A stretch of 46,599 bases of DNA from Nitrosomonas sp. (lineage in GTDB: Bacteria; Pseudomonadota; Gammaproteobacteria; Burkholderiales; Nitrosomonadaceae), in assembly GCA_017984435.1 (NCBI GenBank), contig JAGNZK010000022.1:1-46599 (forward strand), in the 5' to 3' direction. The notes under the pieces were generated by a model, which did not search any database, was not told the DNA's origin, and worked only from the letters and a program-made list of their open reading frames with translations. The translations under genes were made by a program, and so were the position numbers. Shown piece after piece: positions 17,226-37,005 of the stretch; position 1 is the first letter of the stretch, and each line of letters starts with the position of its first letter.

Positions 17226-17249
17226 ATGGTAGCCAAAAGGGACGTAGCT

Positions 17250-17975: not shown

Positions 17976-19322
17976 TTATTTCTGGGGTGCAGGGTGAAAA
18001 TAGCTGGTTACATTTCTTAAATCATCTAATACCAGCGTGCCAGCAGCTAATTGTAAGCGAAGATAAGCCAGCAGGTAGTTATATCGTGCCTGAGCAAGAT
18101 CGCGTCGAGCCGTATGTAATTGTTGTTGAGCATCCAAGAGATTCAGATTAATGCGTATACCTCCCCGGATACTTTTTTGCGTGGCATCAACAAGTAGTTC
18201 GGCGGATTTAACAGCCATTTGCAGTGATTCAATTCTTTTAACACCACTGAGTAAAAGATTATATTGTTTGCGTAATTCAACAAGTACTTTATCAGTGATG
18301 ACATCCAGATCAGCTTCTGCACGCGCATGGTTAGCCTTTGCCTGAGCGGTGATTGCATTGACGCGGCCACCGGCATATAAAGGAAAATTAACCTCGACAC
18401 CCACTGTGGCCAGACTCACATCACGATCTTGGGTGATGAATGACCCCGCTTTATTGCGCGTTAAGCTGGCAACGAGATCTACACGAGGAGCATGCCCGGC
18501 ATGGCTTTTTCTGATTTCTTCCTTTCCGGATGCTACAGCATGGCGTTGTGTTGCCAGCTCAGCATTGCGTTCAAGCGCTAATGCGTGCCAGTTATCATAA
18601 TCTTGTAACCGAATGGCATGGGAGCTGAACATATCGGATAAGCGGTCCAACTGGGTTATTTTTTGTCCCACTATGGCTTCGAGTTTAAGTCGTGCAACTT
18701 CCAGTTCATCATTCGCTTCAATAACGCGTGCTTGTGCAATTGCGTACTTTGACTGTGTTTCAAGTACATCCGTAGTGGTTCCTTCGCCTTTTTGTAACAT
18801 GCGTTCATTGATACGTTTGAGCTCTTCGAGCGAGTTGCGTTGTGTTTCAGCAAGCTTGACATGATCTTGTGCAAGCAATGTTTCTACATAGGCTTCTACT
18901 AACCGTACTACGAGTTGCTGGCTGCGGCCGGTAAATTTGGCACGACTGGAGTCAGCCTGCGCTTTTCCTATACGATAGCTGGCAACAGCCTCCATATTGA
19001 TCAAGGGTTGGCGCAAAGATAAGGTACTTACTTGGCTGTCGAAATCAAGTGGTCTGGTACCAGCAACGCCAGTTTGCGTGATTGTCCCAGTACTTGTGCT
19101 TTGCGCATGCGTGATAGATAAATTAGGCAGTAAACTTGCAAGACCGATGGCTTCTGCTTGTTCTCCCGCTTCATTTTCATGCAGAGCAGAGCGATAGGTT
19201 GGGTCATGCCGTAATGCTGCCTCATAAGCATCTAATAGACTCATTGCATGAACATGGCTAACCTGGCTAAGCAGGATAGCGCAAACTAGTGCCGGGATCT
19301 TATGGCGAACGAATATCATCAC
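17976..19322 (-). CDS. TolC family outer membrane protein (type I secretion)
   Basis: The 448-residue protein has a cleavable signal peptide ending near VHA (about residue 26) and two long heptad-rich repeats characteristic of the TolC/OEP fold. Typical blocks are LLDAYEAALRHDPTYRSA at the start of the first repeat and NFPLYAGGRVNAITAQAKA at the start of the second. TolC-like trimers form the outer-membrane pore and periplasmic tunnel of type I secretion systems. It is the last gene of a tight three-gene unit: two bases separate it from the HlyD-type adaptor. The likely cargo is the RTX-type surface protein at 33307-36879. Confidence 0.93.
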   Translation of the reverse strand: MMIFVRHKIPALVCAILLSQVSHVHAMSLLDAYEAALRHDPTYRSALHENEAGEQAEAIGLASLLPNLSITHAQSTSTGTITQTGVAGTRPLDFDSQVSTLSLRQPLINMEAVASYRIGKAQADSSRAKFTGRSQQLVVRLVEAYVETLLAQDHVKLAETQRNSLEELKRINERMLQKGEGTTTDVLETQSKYAIAQARVIEANDELEVARLKLEAIVGQKITQLDRLSDMFSSHAIRLQDYDNWHALALERNAELATQRHAVASGKEEIRKSHAGHAPRVDLVASLTRNKAGSFITQDRDVSLATVGVEVNFPLYAGGRVNAITAQAKANHARAEADLDVITDKVLVELRKQYNLLLSGVKRIESLQMAVKSAELLVDATQKSIRGGIRINLNLLDAQQQLHTARRDLAQARYNYLLAYLRLQLAAGTLVLDDLRNVTSYFHPAPQK

Positions 19323-19324
19323 AA

Positions 19325-20677
19325 CTATTCTTCGCTCATGGATGAATGAACACGATCCAGGATTGGTTTGAATAAATAGCTCATTAATGACCGTTCCCCT
19401 GTTTTAATAAATATTTCTACCGGCATACCTGCGCGTATCTGCTGATCGGATAATTGCTTCATGCCTTCCGGAGTCACCGTAGCTTTTATGGTATAAAACG
19501 GAAGTCCACTTCTTTCATCAGTTAGGCGATCTGCAGATACCTGAGTGACGATGCCTGGAATATTAGGTGTTTTCTTTTGGTTGAGGGCAGGAAAAATGAG
19601 ATCGACAGGAAGGTCAACATGCACCCGGTCAATTAAGTGAACAGGCACTTGTCCCGTAATGACCAGCATATCATCGCTGGGAACAATATCCATCAACTTA
19701 AACCCCGATCCGATCACTCCGCCTTCCGTAAACACATTCATGCCTACTACAATACCTCCTACAGGGGCCTTCACCAATACGTTGGCCAGCTCAAAATCCT
19801 GTCCACTCAAACGGCTATTGAGTGCATCCGCTTCTCGTTGTATATCCGATAATTTTTCCCGTACTTCTTTTTGGTGTTCTTGCTGTCGCTGGATACGACG
19901 CTGTTCCAATTCCGTTATTTGGCGTTGGATGCGACCGATATTGCCGATATCCGAAGAAATTTCTCCTGTTAACTGCGTGTAAGTGCGTTCAACATCCAGG
20001 AGGCGATTGCGAGGTACAAAACCATCTTTTGCCAAGTCGCGCAGATTGACAAGTTGTTCTTCTAAGAATTTTAATTGCTGATTTTTACTTGCCTTTGATG
20101 CTTCAAGTCCACGCAACTGTACTTTCAAGCCGGCACTATTTTCATCAAGTGCGGCGATCTCATGATGCAAGGCTAATTTACGCGAGGTGAATAGTTGATT
20201 TTGTATAACGATGCCATTGGCAACACGTGTATCACTCTGTAGCGATAGTAATTCCGCAGGAAAGGTAATTTCATTTTTGCCGTCGCGTTCTGCCAGTAAG
20301 CGTGCTTCCACAGCGCGTGCTGTGTAAAGTTGAACGCGAGTTATTTCGGCTTGTGCTTTGATTTGAATATCATTCATGCGCACCAGTATTTGGCCTACCT
20401 TGACGTGCTCCCCTTCCTTAACCAAGATGCTGTCTATAATCCCTCCGGTTTGATGCTGAACTGCTTGCAGATGGCTGGCGACTGTAACTGTGCCTGAAAT
20501 CGGAACACCTTTGTCGAGTGGTGCGAAGGATGCCCATAGAATAAATCCGCCGAAACCTGCTAAAACTATCCACCAGCCCAGCCGGGTATGTATGGTTTCA
20601 TCAGTTTCAACCCAGCTTGAACTATCGACCGGAATGCTCTCAATAATTTTCTCTTTTTGTTCAGCGACAAGCTTCAT
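19325..20677 (-). CDS. HlyD family type I secretion adaptor (PrtE-like)
   Basis: This 450-residue membrane-fusion protein has a short cytoplasmic N-terminus, one membrane helix (about 34-52), a lipoyl half-motif GTVTVASHLQAVQHQTGGII, a long coiled coil (about 120-290) and the second lipoyl half followed by a beta barrel (VKAPVGGIVVGMNVFTEGG). It would bridge the inner-membrane ABC transporter to the TolC-like pore. AGGAAT precedes the start. The closest characterised types are PrtE and RsaE, which serve RTX proteases and the Caulobacter S-layer protein. Confidence 0.94.
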   Translation of the reverse strand: MKLVAEQKEKIIESIPVDSSSWVETDETIHTRLGWWIVLAGFGGFILWASFAPLDKGVPISGTVTVASHLQAVQHQTGGIIDSILVKEGEHVKVGQILVRMNDIQIKAQAEITRVQLYTARAVEARLLAERDGKNEITFPAELLSLQSDTRVANGIVIQNQLFTSRKLALHHEIAALDENSAGLKVQLRGLEASKASKNQQLKFLEEQLVNLRDLAKDGFVPRNRLLDVERTYTQLTGEISSDIGNIGRIQRQITELEQRRIQRQQEHQKEVREKLSDIQREADALNSRLSGQDFELANVLVKAPVGGIVVGMNVFTEGGVIGSGFKLMDIVPSDDMLVITGQVPVHLIDRVHVDLPVDLIFPALNQKKTPNIPGIVTQVSADRLTDERSGLPFYTIKATVTPEGMKQLSDQQIRAGMPVEIFIKTGERSLMSYLFKPILDRVHSSMSEE

Positions 20678-20735
20678 TATTATTCCTGTTCAAGGATCAG
20701 TACTTTCTCAATCGGTAATTATAGCGTGTGATGAT

Positions 20736-22529
20736 TTATTTGGTCTCTGGGTCAGCTACATTAACAACAGTCTGGGTTGTTTCACTCTGGGCAGTTTGCT
20801 TCTTGGTCTCTTGCTGCGATTGAAGAGCTTTTTGTGCTTGCTGCTGTTGTTGGGTTAACTTTTCTATGACCTGATTGGTCGGGCCGAACAATTTTGCTGA
20901 ACCATCCTGTAGCAATAACAATTTTGTGGTGACACTGATAATACTAGTGCGATGTGTGATTAGAACGATGGTTTTTCCACGTTTTTTTAGATCAACTAAT
21001 GCGGCTAACAGTGCCTGTTCGCCGACATCGTCTAAGTTTGAATTGGGTTCATCGAGAACAATTAATGATGGATCGTCATACATGGTGCGCGCTAGACCAA
21101 GACGTTGCTTTTGTCCCCCTGAAAGACCCGCGCCGCCATCACCTAATGGCGTGTCATAGCCTTCCGTCATGTTCAGAATCATTTCATGAACTCCCGCGCG
21201 TTTGGCAGCCAGAATGACCTTGTCGGCATTGATTTCCCCGAAGCGGGCGATGTTTTCGGAGACAGTACCGGCAAATAATTCGATATCCTGCGGTAAATAG
21301 CCAATATGCGGTCCCAACTCATCTTTGTTCCAAAGATAAACATCCGCACCATCCAGACGCACTTTACCGGCAGCGGCTGGCCATACACCAACCAGCAAAC
21401 GTGCCAACGTGGATTTTCCTGATCCACTGGGGCCAATAATACCCAGTACCTCGCCCGCGGCCAAGGAGAAAGTTAATCCTTTGATAACAGGGACCTTGCC
21501 ACCAGGTGGAATGGCCGTGACATTCTCAACAGCAATAGTACCTTGAGGTTTGGGTAATGCCATGCCGGCTTCACGAGCTGGATTTTGTTCGAGTAATTGG
21601 GTCAAGCGCTCATATGCGCTACGTGTGCTGCCAATTTGCTTCCACACACTGATCAGTAGCTGAACAGGGGCAATGGCTCTGCCTAATAAAATTGAACCGG
21701 CGATCATCATGCCGGGCGTGATGCTGTTATCCAGAACCAGTAAAGCGCCCAATCCTAGCATGAGTGACTGCAATGCGACGGTAAACGATTTGGATAGCGC
21801 AGCAACAACCCCCGCCTTCTCACTGGCTTCTGCCTGTAGATTAAGAAAACGGCTATGTAATTTGTACCAGCGTGATTGTATATTGGGCAACATACCCATG
21901 GCTTCGATGACTTCGGCATTGCGTAAATTATTGGATGCTACATTGCCGGAGGCGATTGCCATGGAATTGGCTTCAGCCAATGGTTTATGTGAGATTTTTT
22001 CGTTGATGTAGGCCAGCGTGATTAATATGACCGTACCACATAAAGCAAAGACACCCAAAATGGGATGAAACATGAATATCACGAATAAATAAATCGGGAA
22101 CCACGGTGCATCAAAAAAAGCGAAAAGCGCGTTGCCTGTCAGGAATTGCCGGAGGTTGGTCAGATCTTTTAAAGCTTGCCCGGCATTACCGTCGCCTTGT
22201 TTTAGACTTTGCTCGAATGCAGCGGTATAAACACGTTTATTCAATTTCATGTCAAGTTGAGCGCCGACGCGAATGAGTACGAAGCTACGCACATATTCCA
22301 GTGAACCCATAAAAATATAAGCACCCAGCATGATCAATGTCAACATGAGCAGAGTCATTTCGTTGCGGCTGGTCAATACACTGTCATAAAGTTGCAGCAT
22401 ATAAATAGCCGGCATCAGCATGAGCATATTGATGACCGCACTGAAAACGCCAATATTGCGGAAGGTTTGTTTAAAGCTGGCGAGTACTTGCGCAACTTCA
22501 TTCTGTGGAGCTTTAAATTTGAATTTCAT
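20736..22529 (-). CDS. Type I secretion ABC permease/ATPase (PrtD-like)
   Basis: A 597-residue fused transporter: membrane domain at about 20-310 and an ATP-binding domain at about 330-550. The Walker A loop GPSGSGKS is near 366-373, the signature LSGGQKQR near 468-475 and Walker B LIVLDEPNS near 488-496. There is no N-terminal C39 peptidase or peptidase-like domain, so it belongs with PrtD/RsaD-type exporters of proteins with an uncleaved C-terminal signal. A tail of about 45 residues after the ATPase is glutamine-rich. It starts the three-gene secretion unit, 135 bases after the glycan genes on the same strand. Confidence 0.95.
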   Translation of the reverse strand: MKFKFKAPQNEVAQVLASFKQTFRNIGVFSAVINMLMLMPAIYMLQLYDSVLTSRNEMTLLMLTLIMLGAYIFMGSLEYVRSFVLIRVGAQLDMKLNKRVYTAAFEQSLKQGDGNAGQALKDLTNLRQFLTGNALFAFFDAPWFPIYLFVIFMFHPILGVFALCGTVILITLAYINEKISHKPLAEANSMAIASGNVASNNLRNAEVIEAMGMLPNIQSRWYKLHSRFLNLQAEASEKAGVVAALSKSFTVALQSLMLGLGALLVLDNSITPGMMIAGSILLGRAIAPVQLLISVWKQIGSTRSAYERLTQLLEQNPAREAGMALPKPQGTIAVENVTAIPPGGKVPVIKGLTFSLAAGEVLGIIGPSGSGKSTLARLLVGVWPAAAGKVRLDGADVYLWNKDELGPHIGYLPQDIELFAGTVSENIARFGEINADKVILAAKRAGVHEMILNMTEGYDTPLGDGGAGLSGGQKQRLGLARTMYDDPSLIVLDEPNSNLDDVGEQALLAALVDLKKRGKTIVLITHRTSIISVTTKLLLLQDGSAKLFGPTNQVIEKLTQQQQQAQKALQSQQETKKQTAQSETTQTVVNVADPETK

Positions 22530-22664
22530 CGATAAGTGTTATGGCGGAGAAATTGTATGTTACTCATTGCAGAAGTTAACCACAGTCAGAGTTTGAATAG
22601 AGTAAATAATATGATTTGCCAGGAATATGCAGTATATTGAATCGGTTGTAATTATAATTGCCGA

Positions 22665-23549
22665 TCAGCAGTTTTGACTAGGTAAATCTGCTGTCGTCAA
22701 CTTAAATGATCTGGGAGAGAAATTTAAATCTCGTTTTGTATCTGAGCTATCAAATATCAAATCTTGATTCATTCTTTCCGCCATTGCTGCTGTCCAGTGT
22801 TGATAGCGTGGTAACCATCGTAATCCCCATGTTGTCATCCGAAAAAACCAAAGCGGTACCGTTAATAGTCGCGATTTGCGATCAAGTGCTTCAAAGACCC
22901 GTTTAACCATTTCACGATATGGCAGTGTTTCTCCACCGGTTAGGTTATAAGGACGATCTGTTAAATTTAAAGTGCTGAGTGCATAAAAACATGCTGAAGC
23001 GACATCTTCAACATGGATGGGTTGCCGCAGCCCATGCGCTGACCCGAATACCGGGAAGAATCCGAATCGACGGATAAATTGTGCTATTTCAGTGATATTT
23101 TTATCTCGTCCATAGCCATAGATCAGTGTCGAACGCAAAATAATCCATTCTATTCCGTGAGAGGTCGCCCATGTTTGCACAAGTTCCTCGCCTTTTATTA
23201 ATTGAGATGCAATTTTTCTTTCGTTGCAATCAAACGAAGCGTTTTTAGTGAATCGGCTGGTGGAAGATAATACAACAATCCGCCGCACGCCATAAGCTAA
23301 TAAGAGATCAAAATACTCAGATACTACCCAGATGGGAGCAACGCATAACCAAAAAGGGATTTTTTTTTCTGTGTCTATTTTTGTCGGATTGATCGTATCG
23401 AGCTGCTGCCAAGTGATTTGTGGATGGATTTGTGTAAACGGGCGGCGAGAAAAAGCAGTGACATGCCAATGATTTTGTATGAATTGCTTGAGTAAACATT
23501 CACCTACCAGACTAGTAGCCCCCAACAATCCAGCATGTTTCTCATTCAT
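22665..23549 (-). CDS. NAD(P)-dependent epimerase/dehydratase (SDR family)
   Basis: The 294-residue protein has an N-terminal Rossmann fold with the nucleotide loop GATSLVGECLL (about 9-19), a serine-rich strand RIVVLSSTS (about 90) and the RSTLIYGYGRD block typical of extended SDR proteins. Later comes PYNLTGGETLPYREMVKRV, also common in the family. A clear YxxxK catalytic pair is not visible, so it may be an atypical SDR. Its product is likely a modified nucleotide sugar for the surrounding glycan pathway, but the substrate is unknown. It overlaps the upstream glycosyltransferase gene by eight bases. Confidence 0.82.
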   Translation of the reverse strand: MNEKHAGLLGATSLVGECLLKQFIQNHWHVTAFSRRPFTQIHPQITWQQLDTINPTKIDTEKKIPFWLCVAPIWVVSEYFDLLLAYGVRRIVVLSSTSRFTKNASFDCNERKIASQLIKGEELVQTWATSHGIEWIILRSTLIYGYGRDKNITEIAQFIRRFGFFPVFGSAHGLRQPIHVEDVASACFYALSTLNLTDRPYNLTGGETLPYREMVKRVFEALDRKSRLLTVPLWFFRMTTWGLRWLPRYQHWTAAMAERMNQDLIFDSSDTKRDLNFSPRSFKLTTADLPSQNC

Positions 23550-24438
23550 GTTTGGGTTTCATCAGTTTGTAACAGTTTTGCACAGTATAAAACATGACTG
23601 TAGCGCCGAAACGAAGCCATATACCTAATGTGACTAATGTCATCAGCGTACTTGGATACTGGTGGCGGAAAAATTTTCGATAAAAGCGTAACATACTTTT
23701 ATGCTTATGCCAGGCGACAAAGAATGGGCGGGAACGACTACAAGTTCCTTGAAAATGCGTAACTGGCGCATCGGGCACAAAAATAATTTTCCAATTCTTT
23801 TGCTTGAATCGCATGCACCAATCCAGATCTTCACAATGCAAGAAATAGCCTTCATCCCAGGTTCCCACATCCTCGATAGCTTGTCGCCGCACCAGCATGA
23901 GTGCTCCTGAAATGGCTTCAACTTCAATAGGTGTTTGTGGTAATGGTTGCTTATGCAAATGAAAGTCAAAAAACAATTGCGGCCAGTATTTCGCCAGGCG
24001 ATATAAACCAAAAGCACGCACAAAAGCGCGCCAGGGTGTAGGAATAGCGCGCCGCCCACCGCCTTGCTCAGAACCATCTGGGTTAGTCACATAGCCACCA
24101 ACCATACCGATATGGGGATCTGATGCTAATACTTGTACTAAACGTTGTAACGAGTTTTTCTCGAGAATGCAGTCTGGGTTGAGGAAAAGAATATAGGGCT
24201 GTGTTGATGCATTAAGGCCAATATTGCAGCCCGTAGCAAAGCCAGCGTTACGGCCAGTAGGTATTAATTTTAGAGGTGCTTCTGCGGTGAGAGAATTCAT
24301 TAAATTCACCAAACTAGAGTCTGTTGATGCATTATCTACGACAATGATTTCTCTCGCTTGTTTAAGAGCGGCGTGAACGCACCCGGTTAGCAGGGAACCT
24401 GCGTTATGATTGACAATAATTACTGCTACAGGTAGCAA
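23542..24438 (-). CDS. Family 2 glycosyltransferase (rhamnosyltransferase-like)
   Basis: A 298-residue GT-A fold enzyme. Visible are the opening strand VAVIIVNHNAGSLL, the nucleotide-sugar segment IIVVDNASTDSS, AGFATGCNIGL, and LFLNPDC, where NPD takes the place of the metal-binding DxD as in WbbL-type rhamnosyltransferases. GYFLHCEDLDWCMR follows in the acceptor region. A hydrophobic C-terminal segment (about 262-285) could dock it to the inner membrane. Eight bases separate it from the preceding WbsX-like gene, so the two belong to one operon. Confidence 0.9.
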   Translation of the reverse strand: MLPVAVIIVNHNAGSLLTGCVHAALKQAREIIVVDNASTDSSLVNLMNSLTAEAPLKLIPTGRNAGFATGCNIGLNASTQPYILFLNPDCILEKNSLQRLVQVLASDPHIGMVGGYVTNPDGSEQGGGRRAIPTPWRAFVRAFGLYRLAKYWPQLFFDFHLHKQPLPQTPIEVEAISGALMLVRRQAIEDVGTWDEGYFLHCEDLDWCMRFKQKNWKIIFVPDAPVTHFQGTCSRSRPFFVAWHKHKSMLRFYRKFFRHQYPSTLMTLVTLGIWLRFGATVMFYTVQNCYKLMKPKHE

Positions 24439-24446
24439 TCTAATAT

Positions 24447-25763
24447 TTAGTTGGTTTTCTCAGTTGATGTCGATGTTTTATTTCTTGCGCGATAGATACG
24501 CAGGAGTTTAACGATTGGTAATAATACATATCGTAACCTTGGTCGATGATTGATGGCTAGCTTTAATTGTCCAACCCTGAGCGAAGCATGGTAGTAAATC
24601 GTGTCTCTAATATCTGTCCATAATGTTCGAGGATGTACTTCTTCAGTGCGAGGTGAATCGGTATGCGGGAATGCCGAAAACCTGCGTAAATTACTCTTGG
24701 CACTTAATGTAGCCCGAAGAAAGCCATGGCCGAATAAGCGATCGGGTTCAAGATGGCAACCTTCCGCCCACTCATTCCATGCATTGATGAATACCAATTG
24801 ATCGCCATTATTAGAGCGTTGAGCAATGTCAATGGTAGATGATAACCAGTATTCGTAATTTTCGGGTGTTCCATTCAACACCACAAGTGCTCGACTGTGA
24901 GTGCGTGCTGTATTATCCCATGAGGGGAAGACCGTTTTGAAAACGCGCGTAGTAGAAGTGCCATAAATACGATCGATATAAGATTGTGCGATCGTGGCAT
25001 ATTGCATGACATTTCCTTGGAAGGCTTCAAAAAAATTAACTGCATTATTGACGTTGCCGTGTTTTAGATTGTGTGGTGGAAATTCGATACCACTATCAAA
25101 CCCGAATTGAGCGTAATCCTCGTTGCCATGTGTCAATGCCGCACAAAGATGAATTTCGCCCAATCCAATCGACTGGCAATATTCACGCCATACATTTAAT
25201 GTTTTGCGGGCATTCGGGAGATGTTGAGGTCGATATACGATGAGAAATGGTTTGTCGTCTACACGGATATAGCGTTTATCATTAAAAAAAGGTATTAGTG
25301 ATTGGATAAAATTTAAATCATCTTCGGGTAAGTATTTTTGTGCAATCAATACTTCGTGATCAGCGGCATCCCAGCGACGCGTCCAGTTTTCATTAGCCCA
25401 GCACAGGCAGAATGGCATATTACTTTCCGGATCAGCAAGCATGTCATCCAGGGGTAAATTAAGTATTCGTTTGCCTGAGAACCAGTAATAGTGATAACAG
25501 AATCCGTCAATACCATAGTGTTTAGCCATTGAGATTTGATCACGCCGTGTCTCACGAACACGCAGATCGTAGAAGCCAAAATCACTCGGCAAGTGCGGTT
25601 GATAATGACTTTCAAATAGCGGTTTCGCTTTGGTGACGTTAGTCCATTCGGTAAAACCTTTCCCCCACCATGCATCATTCTCTGGTGTTGGATGAAATTG
25701 CGTCAGATAAAAAGCGATTAATCTAGGTGCAGGTTTGTTTTCTAGTACAGGTTGGGGTGTCAT
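24447..25763 (-). CDS. WbsX / GH99-like polysaccharide biosynthesis protein
   Basis: This 438-residue protein shows the signature of the WbsX family, related to glycoside hydrolase family 99: RLIAFYLTQFHPTPEND, WWGKGFTEWTNV, YGIDGFCYHYYWFSG, CWANENWTRRWD and FINAWNEWAEGCHLEPD. These proteins occur in O-antigen and capsule clusters; whether they transfer, trim or modify sugars is uncertain. It sits between a methyltransferase and a glycosyltransferase on the same strand, consistent with glycan assembly. Confidence 0.88.
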   Translation of the reverse strand: MTPQPVLENKPAPRLIAFYLTQFHPTPENDAWWGKGFTEWTNVTKAKPLFESHYQPHLPSDFGFYDLRVRETRRDQISMAKHYGIDGFCYHYYWFSGKRILNLPLDDMLADPESNMPFCLCWANENWTRRWDAADHEVLIAQKYLPEDDLNFIQSLIPFFNDKRYIRVDDKPFLIVYRPQHLPNARKTLNVWREYCQSIGLGEIHLCAALTHGNEDYAQFGFDSGIEFPPHNLKHGNVNNAVNFFEAFQGNVMQYATIAQSYIDRIYGTSTTRVFKTVFPSWDNTARTHSRALVVLNGTPENYEYWLSSTIDIAQRSNNGDQLVFINAWNEWAEGCHLEPDRLFGHGFLRATLSAKSNLRRFSAFPHTDSPRTEEVHPRTLWTDIRDTIYYHASLRVGQLKLAINHRPRLRYVLLPIVKLLRIYRARNKTSTSTEKTN

Positions 25764-25822
25764 ATCGATGTAATGGTTTCTGCTTTCTCTTGAATCAGCT
25801 TTATGGAAAGTAATCTAAGTGA

Positions 25823-26668
25823 TTATATTCGGATTTTAAGCCATCCAAGACCTGTACGGATACGTTGTTTGGTTTTATGACTTAAATGCTTTGCAATACG
25901 TGCTTTCCAGCTGGTCATTGGGTTGATTGCAGCTTGCGGAGGCACTCCTGTTAATGATATTGGTGCACCAGGGTAACTAAGTGGCACGGCTTTAACCACT
26001 ACTTGATAAATCTTTGCATGGTTATTGCTTTTTAGTGCTTCTTGAACAGTCGTGGAAAGTTTTGACCAGCTTGTGGCAAATTCAGTTTCATCAGGAGGTT
26101 TAATGACATACTTGACCTCAATGATCTTGAGATCAGCTTGTGCAAATAGTTTCTCCATATTTCTTAGGCCAAAAAAACGGATATGCGTGCGATCCAGCAA
26201 ACCCCAATCACGGTATTCAAAGTCACTGTTGATAAGGCACGAGGCCACTGCTGCATGACCTACATGGGGTAGTGAGATTACGAGATAACCAGTTGGCCCA
26301 ATCAGTGCAGCCATCCGTTTCAGTGTTGACCAAGGATCATACAGGTGCTCCAGCACGTCTGCGGCAATCACGACATCGAACGGTGGTAAATCATCAAGCA
26401 AATTCGGCCATTCCGGGGAATTTAGATCGGCTTGCATAATGGTTTCACAGTAGGGCGCTGCTTTTGTGATTGCGGAGCTATCTAATTCGATTGCTGTTAC
26501 CTGACATCGTCCCTGTTGCGCCAGCATTTTGGTTATTGATCCTGGACCACAACCAATTTCCAGTACGCGTTTGGACAAACCGACTAGTTCGACTACAAAT
26601 GCAGGTGCGGTTTGTGAATTGAGGTTGACAGTATATTCGTATACATGTTTAGGACTAGTTTCTTCCAT
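25823..26668 (-). CDS. Class I SAM-dependent methyltransferase
   Basis: The 281-residue protein has the SAM-binding glycine motif VLEIGCGPGS (about 35-44), an acidic end of strand 2 (AIELDSS) and DVVIAADVLEHLYDPW as motif II. The substrate is unknown, but its placement between glycan genes points to sugar methylation, perhaps capping of a polysaccharide chain. A basic C-terminus (KTKQRIRTGLGWLKIRI) could associate with the membrane. The start lies 16 bases after the PIG-L fusion gene. Confidence 0.88.
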   Translation of the reverse strand: MEETSPKHVYEYTVNLNSQTAPAFVVELVGLSKRVLEIGCGPGSITKMLAQQGRCQVTAIELDSSAITKAAPYCETIMQADLNSPEWPNLLDDLPPFDVVIAADVLEHLYDPWSTLKRMAALIGPTGYLVISLPHVGHAAVASCLINSDFEYRDWGLLDRTHIRFFGLRNMEKLFAQADLKIIEVKYVIKPPDETEFATSWSKLSTTVQEALKSNNHAKIYQVVVKAVPLSYPGAPISLTGVPPQAAINPMTSWKARIAKHLSHKTKQRIRTGLGWLKIRI

Positions 26669-26684
26669 TGCGGTTTTTTATATT

Positions 26685-28544: not shown

Positions 28545-28668
28545 AAGAACCTCAATTATGGGTGGTTTTGTATGCCATGATATTTGTGAAACAAAGGCCG
28601 ATTATTTTAACCTGAATATTTTATGAATTTCTATCAAGCTATAAGCAGTCTGGCTTGTGTAATAAAGT

Positions 28669-30492
28669 TTAACGAAAATCCTTATCGCCACTCATTAGCC
28701 ACCAGTGATTTTTGAGTGTTTCGGGAGTTGGCCCATCACTCCAGGCATTTGCCGGTATATGAATATTCACTGCTTGTTGAGTACCGCCGGTGGCTGCAAA
28801 ATGGGTTGCAAAATTTTCGGTGATGTGGCAAAACACACGTGTGGCGCCATGAATTCGAGCCAATCGCCGGGCGTGTGTAATCAACAGGGGAATGTCGGCT
28901 AACGGTGTGACAAGATCCACGATTTCACAACCCTCAGGATCATACCGCAGTACCAAAATCCCACGTGCACGTCCATTGAAACGATTTTTCACCAATATAA
29001 CCTGGTATTGCTGATGGGGGTGATTGAGGTAACGGTATTGCAGATACTGCCAATCGCGCACACCAATGATTGATTCTTTCAGATCCGTAGCCATACGTTG
29101 CCAGCATTGATTGGCGGCAATGGCTGCAAAGTCTGTCTGTTCGCGATCAATCAGCTGCAGACGTGTTTCCCGCAGCGGTAATCGCGATCTGGTATTCCAT
29201 GAGAACTCAACCAGGCATCCGACTTCAGCATATAACCCATGCCGTTCAGCAATTTTCATGTGTCGTTCACTGGGAAAACCAAAGCCCACTAGATAAGGTT
29301 TGCCATAACCAATATAACGTTCCAAGAAAGTTGCCGTCATAAGGAAAAAAGGCCCTTTTCTGAGAAGTACGCCGCGCTCGCTTGCATCGACCATGACATC
29401 TCCGATCTGCACGGCGGTTTGAGGTTGACCAAAGAACAGAATCTTCCGGCTAAGGCCGCCGTAATGCGCGATCAGTCTATTTTCTCGCCATACACCTATT
29501 TCACGACTTGGGTTTGAACCGTATTTCCACTGCCAAGTGGCCGGGGTCATCTCGTGATTAAATGTTTTCTTAAACAAGTTGAGCATTTCAGGAGTTTGAT
29601 TTTTTTGCAGAATCTGCAAACGCCATTTGGGTGATTTCGTTTTTCTGAAATGCAACAGGGCATAGCCATAATGTCCGCTGGCGTATTTTTTTTGCGATAC
29701 CCGTTTCGATTCATCCAGTTGGTCCAGATGTTCATCACTCAAGTGGAGGTCTTTGATCAGGCTCTGCCGATACTTTGCAGTCATATTGAGCAGATGATTT
29801 AATGCAGGTGCTGCCATGGCGGATAAATCCATGTGTTCAACCAGTTCAAATCCAAATCGCTCGGCGAGTGTCATCATATTCTTGAGCAAATAGCGCCTTG
29901 ATATTCCTGTTTCATCGTACTTCAATGCAAATTCATCGATAATGAGCAAATCACCCGATAAAGGCAGCAGATCCAATGCCTTGTTAAAAATGACCATTGG
30001 TTCAATGTGTTGCGCTGATTCCTGAAATAAAACAACATCAAAGCTTTCGGGTTGAGCGTTAAAATCTTCCAGGGATTGGCACGTCACAGAAGCATCCGCT
30101 CCCATGGATTTCTGAATATAGGCGACTTGCTGCGCATCCGGGGTAATGCCATGGACAGTATAGCCGCGCTGGTTTAATAGGGAAAAAGTGGTGCCCAGAC
30201 CAATACCCACTTCCAAAATGCGACACGGGGACGGAGGTAATCTTGCCAGTAGCAGGTCCGTAGAAAATTGCTGTGCTGCCTGTACACTGGTGTTGTCACC
30301 TTGGAATAATCCATAATGTAGATAAGTGGCTTTACCTTCCTGTAACAATAAGGCGTGGGCATAAACATTCAACGGAAAAGTCAGATTCTTGAACGGGGAA
30401 GGTGGTACTGTAGTAACTGGAAAGATATGGTCGGCTTGACGGTAAAGTTGCGTGTTGGATTGCATCAGATTGGGATTAACAGTCTTGGTCAT
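28669..30492 (-). CDS. Methyltransferase-acyltransferase fusion
   Basis: With the ATG at 30492 the protein has 607 residues. Its N-terminal half (about 80-290) is a class I methyltransferase with RILEVGIGLGTTFSLL near residue 89. Its C-terminal half (about 310-590) resembles GNAT-type acyltransferases seen in glycan clusters, including the TWQWKYGSNPSREIGVWREN stretch where a residue pair usually begins this domain. It could methylate and acylate the same sugar. The start overlaps the wzt stop by one base (TAATG), so it is translationally coupled to the exporter. An upstream start at 30525 would overlap wzt further and is less likely. Confidence 0.8.
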   Translation of the reverse strand: MTKTVNPNLMQSNTQLYRQADHIFPVTTVPPSPFKNLTFPLNVYAHALLLQEGKATYLHYGLFQGDNTSVQAAQQFSTDLLLARLPPSPCRILEVGIGLGTTFSLLNQRGYTVHGITPDAQQVAYIQKSMGADASVTCQSLEDFNAQPESFDVVLFQESAQHIEPMVIFNKALDLLPLSGDLLIIDEFALKYDETGISRRYLLKNMMTLAERFGFELVEHMDLSAMAAPALNHLLNMTAKYRQSLIKDLHLSDEHLDQLDESKRVSQKKYASGHYGYALLHFRKTKSPKWRLQILQKNQTPEMLNLFKKTFNHEMTPATWQWKYGSNPSREIGVWRENRLIAHYGGLSRKILFFGQPQTAVQIGDVMVDASERGVLLRKGPFFLMTATFLERYIGYGKPYLVGFGFPSERHMKIAERHGLYAEVGCLVEFSWNTRSRLPLRETRLQLIDREQTDFAAIAANQCWQRMATDLKESIIGVRDWQYLQYRYLNHPHQQYQVILVKNRFNGRARGILVLRYDPEGCEIVDLVTPLADIPLLITHARRLARIHGATRVFCHITENFATHFAATGGTQQAVNIHIPANAWSDGPTPETLKNHWWLMSGDKDFR

Positions 30493-31766
30493 TATAGATT
30501 GTCTGTCATATTGTTGTTTTCCCACTGATGGGGAATTGAAAAATAACCCTGCAAACGGCCTGTTTGATTTACTTGTAAGGTTGCTATGCCTTCTGCTGAG
30601 TCATAGATATGCAAACCGCGTTCACATAGCAGATATACGCTAATAAGATATTCTCCCTTAAGCAGTGGCAATTGATCCAACCTGATGCAAAGCTGACCTG
30701 AGCCATCGGAGGCACGTTGCAAAGTAAAATTATCTTCCCAGGTTGCCGCACTGGTAATGATGCGACCATCCTGAGTTTGTAGGGCTATTGCCACATTGGG
30801 GCAGGGTAGTATGGGATCGGAAGCAAAGGCGATCAATATTCTGATACTGGATTGTTGGCTGATGATGATAGCATGCTGCGTGCTGATGTCATCCACCTGT
30901 AGTTTTACTTTCTCAAGATGAGCATTACCCAGCACATGTTTCTTGTCATGTTCTTCATTATCATGTTTGGTTATTAATGTTGTGGGTTCTGAATTGGGTG
31001 TGCTTTTATCCAGAAATGCCTGATAAGCGGATACCACCTGAGCCGATTCTCCATCCATAACAATTCTGCCCTGATTAATCCAGATAGTACGATTACACAA
31101 GGATTCAACCTGAAACAGGGAATGTGAACAAAACAGAATCGTTTTTCCCGCATCGCGCATTTGCATAATGCGGGAGAATGATTTACGGGCAAAGGCACCA
31201 TCGCCGACCGATAAGGCTTCATCAATGACCAGAATATCCGGATCTACATTGACCGCGACCGAAAATGCCAAACGGACATACATGCCGCTGGAATAGGTTT
31301 TGACCGGCTGGTCAATGAAATCGCGAACACCGGAGAAATCAATAATACCTTCAATACGATCAGCAATTTCTGATGGATTTAATCCCATGATTGCCGCACT
31401 CATTAAAACATTCTCGCGTCCAGTAAATTCAGGATTAAATCCGGCACCCAGCTCCAGTAAGGCAGCGATGCGGCCATTTATCGTCACTGCACCATGGGTG
31501 GGTGTTAAAGTGCCGCAAACTAATTGCAATAGTGTTGATTTTCCTGAACCGTTTTGACCCACGATCCCAACAACTTCTCCCGATCTCACAGTCAAGTCGA
31601 TGTCGCGCAACGCCCATAATTCCCGGTAATATTGGCGTGAACCCCACCAGCGATGTGGCCACAAGAATTGTTTTAAGCGATCTTTCGGATGCTGGTACAA
31701 CTGATAACATTTGGATAGCTTCGAAGCTTTAATAGCTGCTTCAGAGTTTGCAAAATTAAAGGACAT
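30492..31766 (-). CDS. wzt: O-polysaccharide ABC transporter ATP-binding protein (Wzt)
   Basis: Wzt powers export of an undecaprenyl-linked polysaccharide through Wzm. The 424-residue protein has an ABC domain with Walker A GQNGSGKST (about 69-78), signature YSSGMYVRLAF and Walker B DILVIDEAL (about 178-186). After about residue 265 comes a beta-rich C-terminal domain like the carbohydrate-binding domain of Wzt from O8/O9a systems, which recognises a capped chain end. This fits with methyltransferases in the same operon. The start overlaps wzm by 11 bases; an ATG at 31793 would overlap more. Confidence 0.93.
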   Translation of the reverse strand: MSFNFANSEAAIKASKLSKCYQLYQHPKDRLKQFLWPHRWWGSRQYYRELWALRDIDLTVRSGEVVGIVGQNGSGKSTLLQLVCGTLTPTHGAVTINGRIAALLELGAGFNPEFTGRENVLMSAAIMGLNPSEIADRIEGIIDFSGVRDFIDQPVKTYSSGMYVRLAFSVAVNVDPDILVIDEALSVGDGAFARKSFSRIMQMRDAGKTILFCSHSLFQVESLCNRTIWINQGRIVMDGESAQVVSAYQAFLDKSTPNSEPTTLITKHDNEEHDKKHVLGNAHLEKVKLQVDDISTQHAIIISQQSSIRILIAFASDPILPCPNVAIALQTQDGRIITSAATWEDNFTLQRASDGSGQLCIRLDQLPLLKGEYLISVYLLCERGLHIYDSAEGIATLQVNQTGRLQGYFSIPHQWENNNMTDNL

Positions 31767-32586
31767 CAGCAAATCCCTTGCGTGTTTTCTCAAACCAAAT
31801 CAGACCAGCCCAGGCAATAAGTAAAGCGATCAGATAATAAACAGTGAGCCCAAGCCAATTCGGGGCCTGGCCGTATAAGATCACCGCCCGAACCTGTTCA
31901 ATGATGAAGGTTAGCGGATTGAGAAACAGATAGTCACGAACAGATTCCGGTAATGCCGATGCAGGGTAAAAAATAGGACTCATAAACATCAACATCGTCA
32001 GAATCAAGCCAATGAGTTGACCGATATCGCGAACAAATACGCCAATTGAAGCTATAAACCAAGACAAACCCATAATGAGAAATAGGAGCGGAAGCACAAC
32101 GATTGGTAAGTATATGAATGTCCATGGAATCGGATGATTAATCACCAATAAAAAACCAAATAAAACGAGAAGACTGATTCCTGCATGAAAAAGCGCAGAA
32201 CCTAAAGTCACCCAAGGTAGGATTTCCAGAGGAAATATGATTTTTTTAACATAGTTGACATTGGCAAGGATGAGTCCCGGGGCACGTGAAAGACATTCGG
32301 AAAGTAGATTAAATATAATCAACCCAGCAAATAATGATAAAGCAAAGGCAAATTTATCATTGTAAATGGAGCTATCCGTTTGATCCAAACGCACCTTGAA
32401 TACCACACTGAAAACAAAAGTATAGATTGCTAACATTAGAATGGGATTAATAAAAGACCACAATAATCCCAGAAACGAACCTCTGTATCGTCCAATCACT
32501 TCTCGCTTGATCAATTGCAAGATGAGCGGACGATGTCGTTTCAGACTGAGAAAGATGTCAAAAATGGAAGTATTAAACAGATGCAA
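31756..32586 (-). CDS. wzm: O-polysaccharide ABC transporter permease (Wzm)
   Basis: A 276-residue ABC-2 type permease with about six membrane helices. The N-terminal block LKREVIGRYRGSFLGLLW-type sequence (here starting LIKREVIGRYRGS) is the conserved amphipathic entry of Wzm/TagG proteins. With Wzt it would move a finished, lipid-linked polysaccharide across the inner membrane. It is the first gene of the minus-strand operon and lies divergent from the surface-protein gene at 33307. TATAAT at 32622-32617 on the minus strand could be its -10 element, though no good -35 was found. Confidence 0.93.
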   Translation of the reverse strand: MHLFNTSIFDIFLSLKRHRPLILQLIKREVIGRYRGSFLGLLWSFINPILMLAIYTFVFSVVFKVRLDQTDSSIYNDKFAFALSLFAGLIIFNLLSECLSRAPGLILANVNYVKKIIFPLEILPWVTLGSALFHAGISLLVLFGFLLVINHPIPWTFIYLPIVVLPLLFLIMGLSWFIASIGVFVRDIGQLIGLILTMLMFMSPIFYPASALPESVRDYLFLNPLTFIIEQVRAVILYGQAPNWLGLTVYYLIALLIAWAGLIWFEKTRKGFADVL

Positions 32587-33091
32587 GAAAATGAAACCGG
32601 ATACGTTAGATACAATATTATATTATCGCAGATATCAAGGGAAAATAATCATGGAAAATACGTTATACATGTGGCACGCTTGATTTTGCGCTTTCTCAGG
32701 AGCCGCTGATCGATGTTGCTGGCTGATTCTTTATCGGCATACACCCGATTCGCCTCAATGTGCGCACTGATGTGGTCAGTACCAGGAAAAAAGTTTTTGG
32801 CAAAGATTGGGCAAGCAGAGCCGCTTATTGGAATAGCTAATGTCGCTACTGAAAACTTGGTGGAGAACTATCAGTATAGATTGGAAGATTTGACTGTGAC
32901 ACCTTTTCAAAGAGCGGCAGAAAGTAAATCTCAGTAAAATCATTGGTTTGTTGAATAGAATATTGACAAAATCGGTGTTAACGGTGATTTTTGAGTATCT
33001 CATAATTAACCAGGTTGCATGAATTATCGATAGATATATGAAATTGAGCTAAAGTGATTATATCTAATGAGCATCGACATAATGTAGTAGG

Positions 33092-33111
33092 ATGTTGCAA
33101 ATAAGCAACAT
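33092..33111 (+). other. Hairpin in the surface-protein leader
   Basis: ATGTTGC and GCAACAT form a perfect seven-base stem around AAATAA, about 200 bases before the surface-protein start. As DNA it could be an operator; as RNA a small hairpin in the leader. No T tract follows. Confidence 0.4.
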
Positions 33112-33296
33112 GCTGAATGGAAACTTCGATTGCATACTTGCAAAGCGTATTGGTTTTGGGCAGAATGCACCTGACTTGGCTTTTGTGGTATTTTCTGCTA
33201 GGCAAAATGCTGGTTATGCAGAAGTTGCATAGAAACAAAGTGAAAAACTTGCAAGTAATTTACTTTTTTGTAATAAACTTTTTTAACTTTAATCAA

Positions 33297-33306
33297 GGGA
33301 GCTCCC
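33297..33306 (+). promoter_or_regulatory. Ribosome site inside a palindrome before the surface-protein gene
   Basis: The Shine-Dalgarno bases (AAGGGAG) are part of the ten-base perfect palindrome GGGAGCTCCC, which ends directly at the ATG at 33307. The palindrome has no loop, so it would not fold well by itself, but it could pair with another copy or favour dimerisation. The ribosome site itself is strong, as expected for a highly expressed protein. Confidence 0.6.
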
Positions 33307-36300
33307 ATGGCTATTTCCAGTGAACAAAATATACTACAGATTGTTATAGGTCTGTTTAACGCAACACCGGGTAAAAACAATCTGAATGATCTGACAACGG
33401 CTGTTAATAATGGCATGACCATTCCACAGTTAGCAGATTTTCTAGATAGTCTCCCGATATTTACTAATGATGTTATGGGAGATAAAACCACAACGGCTGA
33501 TAAAGTAGGCGAATTGTTGAGTCACTTTGGCTTAGTGGCAGGCGGTGCGGCAGGTAGTGCTGATAAATTGGCTGAAGATTTCTTTACCGCTCAAATTGAT
33601 GCGGGTGTTAGTTTTGGATCGATTATTAATCAAGCTGTTGATTTTTTAAATCAAACCACTGACCCGGCATTCTCTGCAGTAGTTACTTTGCTGAATAATA
33701 AGGTGATGGTTGCGCAAGCTTTTTCGGAAAGTTATTCCAATAACAATTTAGGTGTTTTGCAAGGCGTATTGGGTGATGTAACTGGAACTGCTGCATATAC
33801 AGATACAGATGTTGATGCTGTTTTGTTAGCTGCAGGTTATCCTCGCGGTGGATCGGAGGGAACATTTATACTGACAAATGGTACGGATATCGAATCAGCA
33901 AGTGTTTTCACGTCAGGCTTGGTATATACCCCAGGAGGCAATGATCGGATTAATTCGCTTCAGGATGAAGATGTATTAACAGGTATTGGAACGGATGCGA
34001 AACTTAACGTTACGGTAGGTAATGCTGAAGATAATGGCTCAGACATTATTACACCGACGTTGAATAACATTGCGACACTGGATGCGGCTTTTACTGGTTC
34101 TGGTTTTGGAGTAGAAGCTTTAGACATGCAAGATGCGACCGGTCTTCGTTCAATAAATATTACGCGTGTTACTCAAGCTGAGGACCGGGCTGAGATTGGC
34201 AACATACAAGATGCCACAGTCAATGATCTTTCGGTAAGCAATACCAACGCCAATCAAGACGGCACTGTTGAGTTCTCATATGGTGAGAACGTTCTCTTAG
34301 ATGAAAACACTGTTGCATTAGAAGTCAGTGATGTTCAGTTAGGCTTCTTGAACATTGGGCAAAATACTTCCGGTATTATTTTTAATGGTGTAGGAGAGCA
34401 AGGTTATGAAATAATGACTTTGAATAGCGCTGGCGGTGGATCCAATACGATTGGTACGCTGAATATGCCGATGGATACAGGCACAGCCGGCAGTTTGACC
34501 ATTACAGGTAATACCGATTTGCGTCTAGGTGATGTGCAAAATGCGGTGAATGTTGACAATAATACACTGGTCGAAGTGAAGGATCTTTATGTAGTAGGCT
34601 CAGGTATTGCCCAGGCAGGTAGTCGGATTGCCACAATTAATGCGGAGCAATTCACTGGGAATCTCACACTGGTGCTTGATAATATTCTGGATGTTGGTAA
34701 GGCCGACACTTCTGGTGTTGATCAGGACGTGACAGTCACTGGGGGTTCGGGTGGTGATACTTTTGTGCTGTACGATGAAGTACAGTCAGGAGATAGCATC
34801 AATGGTGGGGAAGGTGATGATACATTGCTATTTTATTCTGGATCTTCGCTGGATAGTGCTGCAGTTGGAATTGAGAATGCTAATTTGTATGCAGATGGTT
34901 CAATCGGTGAAATTGTAGTGGATTTTGACAATCTAGCCGATGTGACTGATGTTACGTTACGTAACATCAGTTCTGATGTGGATCAAGGCGGTTTCGGTGG
35001 GGATGGCGTGTTGGAAAATGCAGCGGATAATCCTGTCTTTTTTGAGTTAGCTAACTTGACCGATGCGCAGGCAACTGGTATTACTCTTCTGCACGCGACA
35101 ACGGGTAATAATCAGATAGAAAATACTAACATTTTGGCATCTGTTAAAGCCGATACAGCAAACAACACATTGGGTATAACGCTGGAAGATGGCAATAATA
35201 CCGATCCGCGTTCCAACTTTACATTGGTAACGGCTATCACAGATGTTACTTCTACCATTGAAAATGTAACGTTGACAGACTCTGATACCGAATCTAATTC
35301 CGTTGAACTGAACAATTTTGCAGATCATACCGGTACGATTACCCTAGTCGGAGGAGAGGCTGGCGATTTCATTAATCTCGATGTGAATACGGATACAGCG
35401 AATGCAGATATTTCAGCAGTGCTTAATGGCGGAAACTCAACATTAGGATTTACTGCAGATGATGGTGAAGTTCAACAGGGTCTGTATGGCTTGGATACCG
35501 ATGGTGGAGAAGGTGATAGAACTGCCGGTCACATTTTTGATGTTGCTGATCTGGAAACACAGGTTCGCTTGGGTGCAGCAACGATTGATGCCAGTGCCGA
35601 AGCTGCTAATGTTATTCTACGTGTCAGTACCAATGCTGCTTCTGCAGCCGGTGCGCAAACCATTCTTATGGGATCTGGCGATGATACGGTGATTTTTGAT
35701 CGTATCAATGACAGTCGCGCCGGTTTGACGATATCCGATACGGTAACGGGTGGAGAAGGAAGTGACACATTGGCGATTGACGGTCATGGATCTCGCATTT
35801 CACTAGGTGCATCTGAATGGACCAACGTTAGTCAGTTTGAAACACTGCGTCTCGTGGGCACCAATATAGCTGAAGTTGATTCTGATGTCTTATTGGGGCA
35901 AAATTCTTACAATCTTGCGCTGACTAATGATCTGATTAGTTCAAATGGCTCAGGTTTGCTGCATATCATCAATGATAATGACGCCAATAATGACCGATCC
36001 GGAACCGCTACATTGAATTATCTGGATACAGACGATACCGGTGAAGAATCAGGTGTGACGATTGATGCTCGTACGCTCAATGCGCAAAACCATTTTACCT
36101 ATAACGGTGAAGAAGGCCTTTCAAACACTATTGATCGCTTTATGTTCAGCGATGCGAATGTTAATGGTGGAAACACGATTGATGGTGGTGCGGTAGATAA
36201 CTTATCTGATACTAACGGCGTTAATACTGACATTATGGAAATTCGTAACATTGCGACGGTTACTGTTGGTGACTTGGCAGGTGTTTCCAATATCGGTACT

Positions 36301-36879
36301 ATCGCTGGCGTTAACGATCAAGCTGTTGAGCAAATACTTGACTTGGAATTGAATGATACTGTGATCGATGCCTTGTCTGACAGCTATCATGCAGCATCGA
36401 CGATTGAAGTCGAAACTATCACAGTGCGTTTGAATGCCCTAGATGATATCGCAGCGCCAGTAGCTGGTATGGGATTGAAGTTAGATGCAGGTGCGATGAC
36501 AGCAAAATCAGCCGCGGTGGTTGATCTAGATGCCGCATTTGTAGTAGCGGACATACTAAAAATTGGCCAAGGTCTATTAACCGTTAATAATTTCTTAATT
36601 GCGGATGATCAGCTTCAATTATCGGTAAGTCGGTTTGGTTTGACACTGGATGACGATGATATTGGTACTATCGCTCTAACAGATACCGATGGTGATCTCT
36701 CAAATATCATTTTTGGTGTGGCAGCGGTGGCAGCGACTGATTTTATCATCGTTGATAATACCGGTGCTGACACTAATGTGTACTTTGATTCCGATGGAAA
36801 TGGTGCTGGTACGCAAGTGTTGATCGCTACTATCGTAGGTTCTGTGCTAGTGGCAGCAGATGTTGACATCATTGCTTGA
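33307..36879 (+). CDS. Large RTX-type surface protein, candidate S-layer protein
   Basis: This 1190-residue protein is acidic, rich in Asn, Asp, Thr, Gly and Ala, and contains no cysteine, as is usual for type I secreted and S-layer proteins. There is no Sec signal peptide. Residues 1-180 form a helical domain (LADFLDSLPIFTNDVMGDK and similar), the rest being predicted beta-rich. Calcium-binding RTX motifs are few: GGSGGDTFVL near 479, GGEGDDTLLF near 500, GSGDDTVIF near 788 and GGEGSDTLAI near 814. The C-terminal segment NVYFDSDGNGAGTQVLIATI followed by a short hydrophobic end resembles type I secretion signals of surface proteins. A strong ribosome site, terminator and adjacent secretion and glycan genes fit an abundant surface-layer protein, though an adhesin is possible. 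Confidence 0.82.
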   Translation: MAISSEQNILQIVIGLFNATPGKNNLNDLTTAVNNGMTIPQLADFLDSLPIFTNDVMGDKTTTADKVGELLSHFGLVAGGAAGSADKLAEDFFTAQIDAGVSFGSIINQAVDFLNQTTDPAFSAVVTLLNNKVMVAQAFSESYSNNNLGVLQGVLGDVTGTAAYTDTDVDAVLLAAGYPRGGSEGTFILTNGTDIESASVFTSGLVYTPGGNDRINSLQDEDVLTGIGTDAKLNVTVGNAEDNGSDIITPTLNNIATLDAAFTGSGFGVEALDMQDATGLRSINITRVTQAEDRAEIGNIQDATVNDLSVSNTNANQDGTVEFSYGENVLLDENTVALEVSDVQLGFLNIGQNTSGIIFNGVGEQGYEIMTLNSAGGGSNTIGTLNMPMDTGTAGSLTITGNTDLRLGDVQNAVNVDNNTLVEVKDLYVVGSGIAQAGSRIATINAEQFTGNLTLVLDNILDVGKADTSGVDQDVTVTGGSGGDTFVLYDEVQSGDSINGGEGDDTLLFYSGSSLDSAAVGIENANLYADGSIGEIVVDFDNLADVTDVTLRNISSDVDQGGFGGDGVLENAADNPVFFELANLTDAQATGITLLHATTGNNQIENTNILASVKADTANNTLGITLEDGNNTDPRSNFTLVTAITDVTSTIENVTLTDSDTESNSVELNNFADHTGTITLVGGEAGDFINLDVNTDTANADISAVLNGGNSTLGFTADDGEVQQGLYGLDTDGGEGDRTAGHIFDVADLETQVRLGAATIDASAEAANVILRVSTNAASAAGAQTILMGSGDDTVIFDRINDSRAGLTISDTVTGGEGSDTLAIDGHGSRISLGASEWTNVSQFETLRLVGTNIAEVDSDVLLGQNSYNLALTNDLISSNGSGLLHIINDNDANNDRSGTATLNYLDTDDTGEESGVTIDARTLNAQNHFTYNGEEGLSNTIDRFMFSDANVNGGNTIDGGAVDNLSDTNGVNTDIMEIRNIATVTVGDLAGVSNIGTIAGVNDQAVEQILDLELNDTVIDALSDSYHAASTIEVETITVRLNALDDIAAPVAGMGLKLDAGAMTAKSAAVVDLDAAFVVADILKIGQGLLTVNNFLIADDQLQLSVSRFGLTLDDDDIGTIALTDTDGDLSNIIFGVAAVAATDFIIVDNTGADTNVYFDSDGNGAGTQVLIATIVGSVLVAADVDIIA

Positions 36880-36900
36880 TATTAGATGTCGATGAGAAGA

Positions 36901-36951
36901 AGATGATCTCTTAGATATAAAAGATCATCTCTTAGATATAAAAGATCATCT
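36901..36951 (+). repeat. 21-base direct repeats after the surface-protein gene
   Basis: A 21-base unit ending CTCTTAGATATAAAA occurs at 36902-36922 and 36923-36943, followed by a partial third copy (36944-36951). The first copy has GATGATCT and the next GATCATCT, so AGATGATCT (36901-36909) and AGATCATCT (36922-36930) can also pair as a nine-base stem. It lies between the stop codon and the terminator and may stabilise the 3' end of the mRNA. Confidence 0.8.
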
Positions 36952-36971: not shown

Positions 36972-37005
36972 AAAAACCCGATCTGTATTATGGATCGGGT
37001 TTTTT
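36972..37005 (+). terminator. Strong intrinsic terminator of the surface-protein gene
   Basis: AAAAACCCGATC (36972-36983) pairs perfectly with GATCGGGTTTTT (36993-37004) around a nine-base loop, and is followed by a T-rich stretch. It lies about 95 bases after the stop codon. The symmetric A and T runs would let it work in both directions, but its position suits the surface-protein transcript. Confidence 0.92.

Follow-up and report, generated by a model that had tools for sequence, protein, structure and literature searches.

A probable type-I-secreted, glycan-anchored S-layer locus in Nitrosomonas

Genes of the locus

The window analysed in this study, a whole stretch of 46,599 nucleotides at positions 1 to 46,599 of contig JAGNZK010000022.1 (Nitrosomonas sp., NCBI GenBank assembly GCA_017984435.1), contains between positions 17,976 and 36,879 a set of genes that probably serves a surface layer (S-layer) held on an exported glycan. 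Two blocks lie on the minus strand, namely tolC-hlyD-prtD of a type I secretion system (17976-22529) and eight glycan genes (22665-32586), and a divergent gene on the plus strand encodes a protein of 1190 residues. The features are as follows:

17976..19322, minus strand: TolC-like outer-membrane channel of the type I system (PF02321, 6e-53; TIGR01844, 7e-93, over cut-off)
19325..20677, minus strand: HlyD-type periplasmic adaptor (TIGR01843, 1e-114, over cut-off)
20736..22529, minus strand: PrtD-type permease/ATPase (TIGR01842, 3e-232, over cut-off)
22665..23549, minus strand: NAD-dependent epimerase/dehydratase-like sugar enzyme (PF01370, 8e-13)
23542..24438, minus strand: GT2 glycosyltransferase (PF00535, 6e-22)
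24447..25763, minus strand: WbsX-type glycosyltransferase (PF14307, 1e-133)
25823..26668, minus strand: methyltransferase (PF13489, 1e-21)
26685..28544, minus strand: PIG-L deacetylase + GT2 fusion with a repeated C-terminal stretch (PF02585, 1e-25; PF00535, 1e-15; tandem repeats)
28669..30525, minus strand: methyltransferase + GNAT fusion (PF08241, 3e-9; PF13527, 5e-9)
30492..31793, minus strand: Wzt, glycan-exporter ATPase with C-terminal Wzt_C (PF00005, 3e-22; PF14524, 4e-10)
31756..32586, minus strand: Wzm, glycan-exporter permease (PF01061, 6e-29)
33307..36879, plus strand: candidate S-layer protein, 1190 residues (open reading frame call; matches in the genus)
33307..33891, plus strand: conserved N-terminal domain, about residues 1-195, proposed glycan anchor
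33892..36879, plus strand: body, modelled as beta-rich, with scattered RTX motifs; proposed to form the lattice, with a presumed C-terminal secretion signal
36972..37004, plus strand: intrinsic-terminator-like hairpin of 15 pairs, 3' of the protein gene

PrtD, HlyD and TolC each exceed the curated cut-off of their profile, which places the system in the PrtD type, and PrtD has a single match in its own genome (G000) at E<=1e-100. The glycan genes, from the epimerase to Wzm, all match domain profiles; an ABC-2 permease together with an ATPase bearing Wzt_C marks an ABC-exported glycan of O9a-like type, and for Wzm, too, the genome gives a single match (E<=1e-10). The original prediction, drawn from the letters alone, had named a full PrtD/HlyD/TolC system, eight polysaccharide genes with Wzm/Wzt and a divergent, cysteine-free protein of 1190 residues, and in all three respects it was borne out.

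The protein has a mass of 122.6 kDa, no Cys, 1.0% Lys and an isoelectric point of 3.65, and it matches no Pfam or NCBIfam profile over the cut-off. Its RTX-like motifs are four scattered GGxGxD and one GxGxD, and PF00353 recognizes two stretches, both below threshold; the earlier label of RTX-type is weak for this copy. Among nine scanned relatives, PF00353 reaches the cut-off in five, stays below it in two and gives no match in two. A single-sequence search found no second match in the protein's own genome; a profile of the N-terminal domain found three further, weaker frames, on contigs C65, C28 and C14. The domain of the C65 paralogue (L180:12141-14474) is matched in two pieces, and this frame carries FG-GAP repeats.

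The protein family and its neighbourhood in relatives

Matches to the protein were found in 48 of the 61 Nitrosomonas genomes, its own included, those in G003 (E 2e-4) and G032 (E 9e-5) being weak. The family consists of a conserved N-terminus joined to swapped bodies: among 42 proteins compared in 250 randomly drawn pairs, residues 1-195 showed a median identity of 46.8%, and the bodies 33.1% against a shuffled baseline of 29.4%. All but one of these 42 proteins are Cys-free, their lengths vary from 741 to 1407 residues, and the isoelectric points in the family lie between 3.19 and 4.28. The frame stops early in Nitrosomonas metagenome-assembled genome Bin_15_1 (96 residues, L093) and in N. 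oligotropha Nm75 (381 residues, L094), the gene being either broken or misread in sequencing.

Scanning a genome collection gave 36 loci, of which 33 carry the title Nitrosomonas and two that of Proteobacteria bacterium, the last being from Aquaspirillum serpens DSM 68, a species name linked with classical S-layers. Two N. oligotropha strains have the locus, and N. ureae and N. supralitoralis are also among the relatives with the gene. The A. serpens relative (L122:9742-12024) is a Cys-free RTX protein of 761 residues with the same N-terminal domain and 25% identity. Its genome has PrtD, and none of the other locus genes was found on the 12-kb contig that carries the domain protein. Since S-layer proteins of A. 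serpens are larger than 761 residues would give, this relative is a lead only for the S-layer protein of that species.

Within the genus, PrtD over the cut-off is present in all 48 genomes with a protein match and in three of the 13 without (Fisher p 3e-9, uncorrected for kinship). One of these three, G026, has a divergent copy of the protein at the expected place; the other two, G023 and G043, carry wzm at the end of a contig or on a short one. A Wzm with at least 69% identity, here called the linked kind, was found in 34 of the 48 genomes and in the same three of the 13 (p 0.003). The expectation that the protein would keep company with this transporter and with wzm/wzt thus held throughout for PrtD and in part for Wzm. 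The case named beforehand as fatal to the proposed link, a relative with the protein but with neither transporter nor glycan exporter, did not occur in the genus sample.

We mapped 45 copies of the protein gene from 44 genomes; five are cut by contig ends at most 530 bases upstream (L033, L034, L040, L074 and L076). Of the 40 copies with enough flank, 33 are divergent beside wzt/wzm: 27 with most of wzm, four with a truncated wzm (G007, G030, G033 and G060) and two with wzt only (G025 and G058). The remaining seven are unlinked. In the mapped DNA the order is broadly kept as tolC-hlyD-prtD-epimerase-GT2-variable part-PIG-L+GT2-methyltransferase/GNAT-wzt-wzm, and the epimerase gene adjoins PrtD wherever the mapped DNA of relatives extends that far. 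Some relatives have PIG-L and GT2 as separate genes or lack the methyltransferase half, and WbsX has no counterpart in the relatives' mapped DNA at E 1e-8.

The N-terminal domain was found in 13 of 399 genomes of the order, nine of them in the genus and one in each of four other families (G152, G250, G288 and G324). In G324, a domain protein of 2611 residues and the whole set lie within about 37 kb, with identities of 57% (PrtD), 35% (Wzm), 45% (Wzt), 34% (PIG-L+GT2) and 26% (GNAT); G288 has all of these genes within some 63 kb, at 38-46% identity (GNAT, 27%). The set thus recurs in three families. PrtD exceeds the cut-off in three of the four genomes from outside the genus that have the domain; G250 is 86% complete. 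Matches to PIG-L+GT2 at E 1e-20 occur in 46 of the 399 genomes, mostly to one half, and both halves are matched in 12: nine of the 13 with the domain and three of the 386 without (p 2e-13). Outside the genus the corresponding numbers are two of four and three of 384 (p 8e-4), a test that is not independent, because it was made after the G324 and G288 loci had been seen. No PrtD over the cut-off was found in the three genomes that have the fusion without the domain. Both G288 (L171) and G324 (L173) also encode a FecR-domain protein close to the genes for the domain protein and GNAT.

Structure models, known systems and probable function

The N-terminal domain was modelled as helical over residues 5-175, with a predicted local distance difference test (pLDDT) score of 93; the body was poorly modelled, as beta-rich. 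When the N-terminal model was compared with 489 chains, RsaA, the S-layer protein of Caulobacter crescentus, ranked first by structure, and with the full model it also came first, taking the top 3 of 201 places by VIA and the top 6 of 31 by Foldseek; these are ranks only, without statistical significance. When only the N-terminal model was searched, Foldseek found no match at E<=0.001, and RsaA was not among the best 50 of 57. These rankings lend weak, model-based backing to the Caulobacter-like logic of the original prediction, in which secretion system, glycan exporter and S-layer protein belong together; the genomes that lack linked-kind Wzm and the other RTX frames described below tell against it. 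Sequence homology to RsaA was considered and rejected: the RsaA_NTD profile PF19198 matched neither the protein up to E 10 nor anything in G000 at E<=0.001, hhalign comparisons with nine RsaA_NTD sequences gave probabilities of 0.1-0.3 percent, and hmmsearch and phmmer against the PDB found no RsaA homology.

RsaA is Cys-free and acidic, as the Nitrosomonas protein is, and O-antigen genes lie near rsaA in Caulobacter. The models of the Nitrosomonas protein suggest the RsaA-like plan of a helical N-terminal domain followed by a beta-rich RTX-like body, and type I secretion genes lie near the protein gene in both bacteria (for rsaA, in the passages available of PMC10765051). RsaA is secreted by RsaDEF; its residues 1-249, solved together with O-antigen, bind it, and residues 250-1026 form the lattice (parts of PMC11026435 and PMC8828063). 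In contrast, the Nitrosomonas N-terminal domain matches neither PF19198 nor any other profile, the RTX motifs are few and scattered, and the host is a betaproteobacterium. The glycan enzymes on the Nitrosomonas side include WbsX and PIG-L+GT2.

For Betaproteobacteria, the sections seen of PMC10765051 describe the S-layer family NpdA, which occurs in Betaproteobacteria and Gammaproteobacteria, Nitrosococcus among them, and whose gene is also linked to a secretion system. This situation is different from that of Nitrosomonas, in which the gene adjoins type I genes, whereas npdA is linked to a type II cluster and those sections name no glycan exporter; the two are set apart here by description. 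Nitrosomonas is not named in the main text of that paper.

Taken together, the locus probably encodes a type-I-secreted, glycan-anchored S-layer that works like RsaA with an anchor domain of another family. The 1190-residue protein is very probably a type I substrate, which PrtD, HlyD and TolC would export unfolded by means of a C-terminal signal and which would fold with calcium outside the cell. The eight-gene cluster would make a surface glycan, exported by Wzm/Wzt and ligated to lipid A, probably as lipopolysaccharide O-antigen; a WaaL-like Wzy_C protein is encoded elsewhere in the genome (G000:C17). As in the export of O9a-type glycans, the C-terminal domain of Wzt would select the finished chain, the end of which the methyltransferase/GNAT protein may determine. 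We think it quite likely that the secreted protein is held at the surface and somewhat probable that its anchor is the glycan of this cluster, gripped by the helical N-terminal domain. The acidic, beta-rich body may then form an outer sheet, and a regular, crystalline lattice seems the fairly probable outcome. On balance, we favour the view that the protein is the S-layer protein of Nitrosomonas or a closely similar coat protein.

The original prediction had also allowed that the glycan might be attached to the protein, which with a covalent bond would be a secreted glycoprotein. Adjacency of the genes is all that speaks for this; a Wzm/Wzt exporter with Wzt_C is of the O-antigen type, type I substrates bypass the periplasm, and no protein oligosaccharyltransferase match was found among the eight glycan genes, the rest of the genome not having been searched. 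Covalent attachment is therefore very improbable.

Rather more weight attaches to a calcium-dependent, type-I-secreted protein that binds the exported polysaccharide without forming a lattice, whether as matrix protein, lectin or adhesin, at the cell surface or in a biofilm. Such proteins exist in Rhizobium leguminosarum, where, in the portions consulted of PMC9298526, PrsDE secretes Rap proteins with affinity for the polysaccharide of the same cell, and RapD has a calcium-dependent structure and binds exopolysaccharide. The wealth of RTX frames in the Nitrosomonas genome, the three further frames with the N-terminal domain, one of them with FG-GAP repeats, and the variable lengths of the family speak for this reading. 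Rap proteins differ in having Cadherin-like domains and dispersed genes, and those portions mention no lattice. Against the reading, the family described here is acidic and nearly always Cys-free, an RsaA-like architecture came first in the structural rankings, and one conserved copy occupies a fixed place beside the exporter in 33 of 40 mapped copies. We consider a lattice-free binding protein rather unlikely.

Several observations weigh against a glycan-anchored S-layer. About 31 other RTX frames exceed the Pfam cut-off in the 2.8 Mb genome, many of them on contigs C79, C13, C14 and C84, so that the transporter need not be dedicated and PrtD, like PrsDE of Rhizobium, may serve many substrates. 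An RTX match at 1e-7 is absent from five of the eight PrtD-less genomes examined (of ten); the co-occurrence with PrtD is thus in part a matter of RTX proteins at large. The protein gene shows no more than a mild codon bias (among the 32 window genes it ranks 3 by codon adaptation index and 5 by log-odds, with a small reference set of rpsA and HU, ribosomal L2 not having been found in the genome), which gives slight backing for a very high copy number. The unlinked copies, in G006, G010, G011, G018, G049, G051 and G053, belong here as well, as do the 14 of 48 genomes that have the protein without a Wzm of at least 69% identity. In six of these 14, wzm beside the gene is truncated (L036, L039, L050 and L057) or gone (L056 and L067), while wzt aligns nearly full length, the surface-protein frame is open, and another Wzm of 56-57% identity is encoded elsewhere in each genome. 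Among the rest, wzm is broken in G049, only a Wzm of 56-57% identity occurs in G011, G018 and G051, G009 has two distant Wzm, and no Wzm was found in G003, G004 and G032, the first two of which are about 75% complete. In such genomes either a different Wzm does the exporting, or some other glycan serves as the anchor. In G049 (L183), wzm and wzt are each matched as two separate pieces, from broken genes or sequencing errors.

The same observations bear on the view that the three parts, namely a type I system of general use, a set of O-antigen genes and an RTX protein, happen to share a hot spot for surface genes, with no functional link. Many RTX frames, unlinked copies, loss of wzm where the protein is kept, and a cluster part between GT2 and PIG-L+GT2 that varies among relatives all speak for this view. 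The arrangement nevertheless exceeds chance, because synteny is kept in 33 of 40 mapped copies and the protein is again accompanied by these glycan genes in two further families, and we regard unlinked neighbours as quite improbable.

For the glycan-anchored S-layer, the way of working is known from RsaA, and what is new is probably the other family of anchor domain in ammonia-oxidising Betaproteobacteria and beyond. More broadly, and only tentatively, Betaproteobacteria, including most sampled Nitrosomonas and Aquaspirillum serpens, may possess a second class of S-layers anchored on O-antigen, unrelated to the first in sequence, in which a helical glycan-binding module built like that of RsaA but of another family is joined to ever-changing bodies and, in three families, accompanied by PrtD, Wzm/Wzt and the PIG-L+GT2/GNAT set. 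Extra wall layers figure in older descriptions of Nitrosomonas, which our literature search did not recover. That search did not find Nitrosomonas, S-layer and type I secretion together, and no S-layer in Nitrosomonas was reported in titles or abstract starts among the matches listed. The parts seen of a 2026 paper (PMC13037477) contrast S-layered archaeal with bacterial ammonia oxidisers, including N. oligotropha, and give the bacteria no S-layer; the surface of archaeal ammonia oxidisers is described, in the text available of PMC11153153, as trapping and channelling ammonium. If our reading is correct, bacterial ammonia oxidisers would wear an acidic S-layer, in parallel with the S-layer of the archaea, and so strongly acidic a bacterial coat would make the parallel to ammonium channelling testable. 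It would likewise give a protein and a genetic handle for the coat of Nitrosomonas, which are important ammonia oxidisers, and it offers a candidate glycan-anchoring domain. For the serpens group, the S-layer protein of which is called unidentified in the sections seen of PMC10765051, the family provides a lead.

Flanking genes and minor features

The flanks of the locus are ordinary, with RNase P protein, yidC and mnmE on one side and pyrF, HU and rpsA on the other (yidC, mnmE and rpsA were named from reading translations). A DUF5658 gene (17226-17720) flanks tolC; it adjoins wzm in G053 (L177) and G049 (L183), in which the surface protein is unlinked. Between this gene and tolC, an open reading frame of 68 residues (17748-17954) had been taken for DUF6447, an assignment that was dropped, there being no Pfam match up to E 0.1. 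Tandem repeats of 42 and 63 bases occupy 26821-27059, a 3' portion of the gene for PIG-L+GT2, and the corresponding stretch of the product is repeated and coiled-coil-like. Finally, a 21-base tandem repeat (36900-36951; 2.5 copies, 96% matches) follows the stop codon of the surface-protein gene and precedes the hairpin.
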